Source: Hyphomicrobiales bacterium
GTDB taxonomy: Bacteria > Pseudomonadota > Alphaproteobacteria > Parvibaculales > Parvibaculaceae
Direction of reading: 5' to 3'
Length of the DNA stretch: 64,000 nucleotides
Assembly: GCA_016124805.1 (NCBI GenBank)
Contig: WGND01000003.1
Location: 310,001 to 374,000 of the forward strand
Shown here: positions 11,177 to 11,923 of the stretch, piece by piece
Numbering within the stretch: the first letter of the stretch is position 1
Layout: every line of letters starts with the position of its first letter
Translations under genes and position numbers: made by a program
The notes under the pieces: generated by a model
The model's database searches: none
Seen by the model: only the letters and a program-made list of their open reading frames with translations
What the model was told of the DNA's origin: nothing

Positions 11177-11303
11177 AATGTTCTCTCATTCGGACAGGAG
11201 GAAGTGGCCCCAAATCTGCATTTCACCATTTGTGAAATTGAATCTGGTGCTCAACCTATCGCTTTGCGCCGTTTTGAAACAGCTATGATTGGGGAACTGA
11301 CGG

Positions 11304-11489: not shown

Positions 11490-11620
11490 GGTGATTGAGC
11501 TCCTTCTCTTGCGGGGGAAGGGGCATCGATCCTGCAAGGCAAGACGCTGAATGGTTCTCGCAGCCGCTGTGCCTATCGGCCTGTGTCAGAACGAAACGAT
11601 TTGGTTACAGGATGAGACAG

Positions 11621-11923
11621 ATGAAGACATATCTGAGCGGCAAGTGGATGACACTGGGTGGCCTTGCGGGTCTCATGGGTGCCGGTCTTCTCTATGCATT
11701 TCTCACGGCGAGCCCGGCTCTGGCCTGCGATATTGGCGATGCGAATTACAACTTCAATTCCAACGCCAATTATAATTACAACTCGAATTACAATTCGAAT
11801 TCCAATGAGAACAGCAATGTGAATTCGAATGAGTATGGTTCGACGAATAATTATGAGAATAATAACAGCGCCACGAACACCTACAGCGTCACCAATACGC
11901 TGCGTGAAACTGTCACAAAATAG
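11621..11923 (+). CDS. Small secreted protein with alternating Asn repeat
   Basis: The 100-residue product shares its leader with the gene upstream (SGKWMTLGGLA, LLYAFLTASPALACD). The leader is followed by an extraordinary mature region in which every even residue from 42 to 70 is Asn (15 X-Asn dipeptides, X mostly Tyr or Ser). After that comes a looser Asn/Thr/Ser stretch ending in TLRETVTK. Cleavage after ALA35 would leave Cys36 as the first residue. The ATG at 11621 is preceded by AGGAT; ATG 11612 is the alternative. The pattern would put all Asn on one face of a beta strand, as in amyloid or beta-solenoid ladders. The function is unknown. Confidence 0.7.
   Translation: MKTYLSGKWMTLGGLAGLMGAGLLYAFLTASPALACDIGDANYNFNSNANYNYNSNYNSNSNENSNVNSNEYGSTNNYENNNSATNTYSVTNTLRETVTK

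Follow-up and report, generated by a model that had tools for sequence, protein, structure and literature searches.

Within the window (the whole 64,000-nucleotide stretch of DNA analysed), a gene for a small secreted-type protein with asparagine at every second residue of a long segment probably encodes, as far as can be judged from sequence, a novel kind of fibre subunit for surface attachment. Our preferred reading, which we hold with a probability of roughly 0.55, is that the protein would act as a subunit or accessory of an amyloid-like surface-anchoring assembly exported by HfaB. HfaB is familiar from the holdfast anchor of Caulobacter, where this CsgG-type exporter has two clients, HfaA and HfaD, the former being amyloid-like. 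The small protein is tied to hfaB by its promoter site and by its ladder and signal peptide, and it is this link that goes beyond the initial annotation of the region.

The 100-residue product, read from the plus strand as MKTYLSGKWMTLGGLAGLMGAGLLYAFLTASPALA followed by CDIGDANYNFNSNANYNYNSNYNSNSNENSNVNSNEYGSTNNYENNNSATNTYSVTNTLRETVTK, consists of a signal peptide, a cysteine, a short linker, the ladder and a 30-residue tail (Table 1). The initial annotation had described a protein with an ordinary signal peptide and with asparagine at each even residue from 42 to 70, and both parts of the description stood up: the 15 rungs are exact in the translation, with Tyr, Phe, Ser, Ala, Glu and Val between them, and a Sec-type signal peptide is present and conserved in the orthologues. 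When residues 37–100, of which 34% are asparagine, were shuffled, the longest alternating run was 12, and the other open stretches of at least 40 codons in the six frames of the window hold at most 4 rungs each. The codon use of the ladder is mixed, with AAT and AAC for Asn and TCC, TCG and AGC for Ser, and the ladder is therefore not a simple DNA repeat; Tandem Repeats Finder reports a period of 6 with 64% matches only. A longer reading frame with a TTG start at 11495 was dropped, the orthologues starting near 11612–11621.

Table 1. Features at the small Asn-ladder locus (positions of the window)
Feature	Coordinates	Strand	Basis
Sigma-54-type site of the duplicate, TGGCCCCAAATCTGCA, 9/12	11205..11220	+	site scoring
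Tandem duplicate with the same signal peptide and no ladder, 61 aa	11304..11489	+	collinear alignment, signal-peptide list
Sigma-54-type site GGGCATCGATCCTGCA, 8/12, 100 bp before the start codon	11521..11536	+	site scoring
Small Asn-ladder protein gene, 100 aa	11621..11923	+	orthologues in 24/27 genus genomes
Sec-type signal peptide with SPALA end, then invariant Cys (residue 36)	11621..11725	+	sequence, alignment of 20 orthologues, signal-peptide list
Asn ladder, residues 42–70, 15 rungs	11744..11830	+	shuffling, 0/200,000 reach 15
Tail; its end TLRETVTK is the counterpart of the family end (T/S)(V/L)xIRxSVSG	11831..11920	+	ortholog alignment

Orthologues were sought in 61 genomes, 27 of them from the same genus, Parvibaculum, with the genome of the window included; 24 of the 27 have one, and the three that do not are 57–83% complete. 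Outside the genus, the search of the 61 genomes gave no convincing match (best E 0.056). The orthologues have in common a signal peptide ending in A-X-A-C, and frequently a start such as GGNYNFNENWNFN and an end such as STSVTIRxSVSG; their aromatic residues are grouped at a conserved spot, the start of the ladder. Although the length of the Asn-rich stretches differs, 23 of the 24 have 10–20 consecutive rungs, the exception being L031 with 6. The initial annotation had reasoned that homologues drifting in composition and losing the alternation would speak against the ladder: within the genus the alternation is kept, whereas the large relatives found outside it (below) do drift. In ten pairwise comparisons, which are partly non-independent, the Asn codons show 40 synonymous and 11 nonsynonymous changes, and the other codons of the mature part 64 and 34. 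Because Asn codons have few synonymous sites and yet change mostly synonymously, we infer strong purifying selection on asparagine; together with the codon mixture, this rules out plain DNA slippage as the source of the pattern.

The duplicate lying just upstream has a promoter-side region and a signal peptide collinear with those of the ladder gene, and GGDGGSGGWYSPVQTIWDILWPW in the place of the ladder; it retains the promoter region and the signal peptide and ends in GGWYSPVQTIWDILWPW. In several genomes, the site of the small gene is flanked by mnmA/methyltransferase genes and rluA/slyX-type genes. Among the neighbours compared across genomes, none is a consistent partner, and the candidates for an operon (mnmA-like, methyltransferase, rluA-like and slyX/GIY-YIG neighbours) were set aside as they look like housekeeping synteny. 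The small gene is also unlinked to hfaB, and its connection with that gene comes by way of a second, larger protein and the promoters.

A pattern search of the same genome brought up another Asn-ladder protein, 376 aa long and encoded on contig C16 (L039 731-1861), composed of a signal peptide, a linker rich in Cys, Gly and Pro, an Asn ladder (including NTNVNWNKNYNQNNNHNENNNTNNNT) and a C-terminal domain some 150 aa long. Aligned across 13 sequences, this domain shows 22 invariant columns; nothing in Pfam, NCBIfam or PDB matches it significantly. The gene for the large protein lies near hfaB in all 13 of the other Parvibaculum neighbourhoods fetched, at a distance of a few kilobases and in convergent orientation wherever the order was read; in the genome of the window, hfaB is at the start of contig C8 and the large gene at the start of C16, an order that matches the other genomes. 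Three further genera of the family (g3, g4 and g5) have a relative of the large gene within about 10 kb of hfaB, and in a fourth, represented by one complete and one 68% complete genome, there is neither hfaB nor such a relative. The large relatives are proteins of 280–400 aa whose ladder is weaker in g4 and g5 and is not built on Asn in every family; among the more distant relatives of the domain, some have alternating asparagines (NININKNININKNI; NLNVNVNVNANANAN) and others have none. With a profile made from the signal peptides of the small family, 12 Parvibaculum large proteins outrank all 1,321 control N termini, but the controls are mostly not signal peptides and such profiles partly score generic features, and the ranking is no more than suggestive of relatedness between the two. 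As the ladder and the type of promoter are common to both, the small protein would most simply be read as a short paralogue of the N-terminal half of the large one. The sequences ahead of the invariant cysteine in the small family (A-L-A-C, A-Y-A-C, A-H-A-C or A-A-A-C, by eye) differ from the canonical lipobox [LVI][ASTVI][GAS]C, and we therefore do not assume a lipid anchor; the cysteine may form a disulfide with the large protein's Cys-rich linker.

The small genes, the large genes and hfaB are preceded by similar sites. Upstream of the small genes there is a GG-N10-GC site with sigma-54-type flanks at −80 to −119, upstream of the large genes a sigma-54-type site at −70 to −94, and upstream of hfaB a conserved one about 150–240 bp before the codon of the lipobox cysteine. 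A score of at least 9 of 12 is reached by 23 of 24 small genes and 20 of 20 large genes, and one of at least 10 by 21 of 22 hfaB genes of the same family, compared with 8.8% (9) and 2.9% (10) of random 250-bp pieces from the same loci; the re-anchored hfaB scan covered 350 bp, and within a genus the genomes are not independent of each other. The site of the window gene scores lowest among the small genes, its spacing being equal to that of the stronger ortholog sites. Sampled by pattern only, the genome of the window has 42 matches vs 16 for the reversed control, among them hfaB, a PAS_5 gene next to the large ladder gene and a flgF-like gene. To judge from these putative promoter sites, the small genes may be co-regulated with hfaB. 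The PAS_5-type gene (L039 2244-2969, contig C16) points away from the large ladder gene and has its own site at C16:2125-2140, and a PilZ-like gene, recognised by eye, lies near it at L039 4941-5627. The flgF-like flagellar gene, also recognised by eye (L115), has its site at C10:54355-54370, which suggests that flagellar and HfaB-related genes may use a common sigma factor.

The identity of HfaB itself rests on the NCBIfam equivalog NF037935, which scores 365 bits in the genome of the window and 393 bits in another genome, G014, at a cut-off of 300; the former also has a PF03783 match for the CsgG-family pore. G014, a single contig of 3.9 Mb, contains the small and the large ladder gene as well as hfaB. 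The HfaA model (NF037934) found nothing in the small protein or in its genome, and the HfaD model (NF037936) nothing in that genome and no match among the large ladder proteins; the Caulobacter controls of both models were positive. Among 387 alphaproteobacterial genomes sampled evenly, HfaB exceeds the cut-off in 21, and the C-terminal domain of the large protein occurs in 18, all of them among those 21. The hypergeometric P for the co-occurrence is 3e-28 by genome, 9e-14 by genus and 1e-8 by family, the last assuming about 140 families. Within one family, the linkage of the large gene and hfaB could be inherited synteny. In family f5, the domain gene and hfaB are on different contigs, and linkage alone does not explain why they occur together. 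In genome G275 of family f57, about 3 kb separate a domain protein from a canonical, model-confirmed hfaABD operon (L185 2489-3376 and 6510-9137). Standing beside the full operon, it would be an additional partner and not a renamed HfaA or HfaD, possibly a fourth component of the anchor. These results point to further proteins that accompany HfaB in several families of Alphaproteobacteria, also in a genome in which the models of the known clients find no match, and to a common type of promoter that ties the HfaB-associated ladder proteins together.

Assembly of the Asn ladder is plausible, and one could picture it as follows. Sec would take the unfolded small protein into the periplasm, and HfaB, as an outer-membrane pore of the CsgG family, would hand it on to the surface. 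There, the N-X-N-X segment would build cross-beta strands with hydrogen-bonded asparagines on one face and Tyr, Phe and Ser on the other. The role of nucleator or anchor may fall to the large protein, which has the Cys-rich linker and the additional domain, and that of filler or fibre subunit to the short one, a division of labour modelled on HfaA and HfaD or CsgA and CsgB in their own systems. More tentatively, and with somewhat less than even confidence, we suggest that the two-residue N-X repeat may represent a new class of functional amyloid, with an Asn ladder exported by HfaB and a separate ladder-plus-domain nucleator or anchor, as a module that occurs in several alphaproteobacterial families and would be the main HfaB client where HfaA and HfaD are missing. 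Should the ladders assemble, hardly any natural amyloid repeat would be simpler than this one, whose period is two, and what Asn ladders do in functional amyloids could be tested directly.

Among known systems, the closest comparison is with HfaABD of Caulobacter: by the equivalog model, an HfaB orthologue is found here too, together with a small, putatively secreted, low-complexity partner, and surface anchoring is a likely common role. In contrast to Caulobacter, the ladder proteins are neither HfaA nor HfaD by the respective models, the ladder genes and hfaB do not form one operon, and there is the extra family with the C-terminal domain. Like the curli subunits CsgA and CsgB, which are exported via CsgG, the small protein has a Sec signal peptide and a regularly patterned, Asn-containing mature part, and its genome has a gene for a CsgG-family pore, but its period is two residues and not that of the longer curlin repeat. 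The minimal form of the latter is X6QXGX2NX10 (PMC3521004). The initial annotation was right that the curlin repeat is not followed: PF07012 is found neither in the small protein nor in its whole genome, while the E. coli control was positive. We would accordingly file the Asn-ladder proteins as putative surface proteins exported in the CsgG/HfaB manner rather than under curlin, HfaA or HfaD, since the models that define those three were tried and do not match. That the small protein was so far undescribed also held, as it matches no family in Pfam, NCBIfam or PDB, and literature searches on Parvibaculum with amyloid or holdfast and on bacterial Asn ladders or Asn-rich repeats turned up no description of the small family.

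The most serious alternative, which we consider unlikely but worth weighing, takes the small protein for a disordered component of the periplasm or the cell surface, a spacer or matrix protein which has the hfaB type of promoter but is neither exported by HfaB nor amyloid. The sequence has no relatives of solved structure in PDB, and the AlphaFold2 monomers, with a mean pLDDT of 45.7 for the window protein and 48.9 for an ortholog, contain the signal helix only and no ladder strands, as disorder would have it, although the predictions were made from six-row alignments and that of a monomer is uninformative for a self-assembling peptide. The lack of linkage to hfaB points the same way, as do the sigma-54-type sites before other genes such as the flgF-like one, which we count against the HfaB explanation. 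The low score of the window gene's own site and the fading of the ladder in g4 and g5 also weigh against that explanation. The disordered reading, for its part, is opposed by the exact alternation of two residues, which purifying selection preserves and a disordered spacer would not need, and by the grouping of aromatic residues at a conserved position where the ladder starts.

A surface protein binding ice, mineral or polysaccharide, in which a beta-solenoid or strand offers a flat Asn face to an ordered ligand, would make use of the regular single-face geometry that the segment should have as a strand. We consider this distinctly improbable: no solenoid is seen in the predicted monomer, the ladder is not Thr-rich, and the link to hfaB indicates attachment. 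The duplicate, the hfaB-linked large protein, the common promoter sites and the co-occurrence with HfaB, four features absent from the initial annotation, together favour surface attachment over ice or mineral binding; the HfaB-exported assembly is compatible with binding of a holdfast-like polysaccharide. A functionless low-complexity expansion, in favour of which the variable length of the Asn-rich stretches in the orthologues speaks, is disfavoured and very improbable, given that the Asn codons change mostly synonymously, that every ortholog has the ladder and that the promoter site and the ends are conserved. Precursors of polytheonamide (proteusins) have alternating asparagines in their core, and the similarity is a lead only; a modified peptide of that type, with alternating D and L residues, N-methyl-Asn and a beta-helix, is hardly credible for a protein with a Sec-type signal peptide, no nitrile-hydratase-like leader and no Pfam match, whose conserved neighbourhood has no consistent modifying or maturation genes and whose larger relatives hold the ladder within proteins of 280–400 aa.

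As a minor observation, the interval that separates hfaB from the large ladder gene in G014 contains three similar genes in a row (L064 7201-8767), one of them a DUF2147 gene by Pfam.
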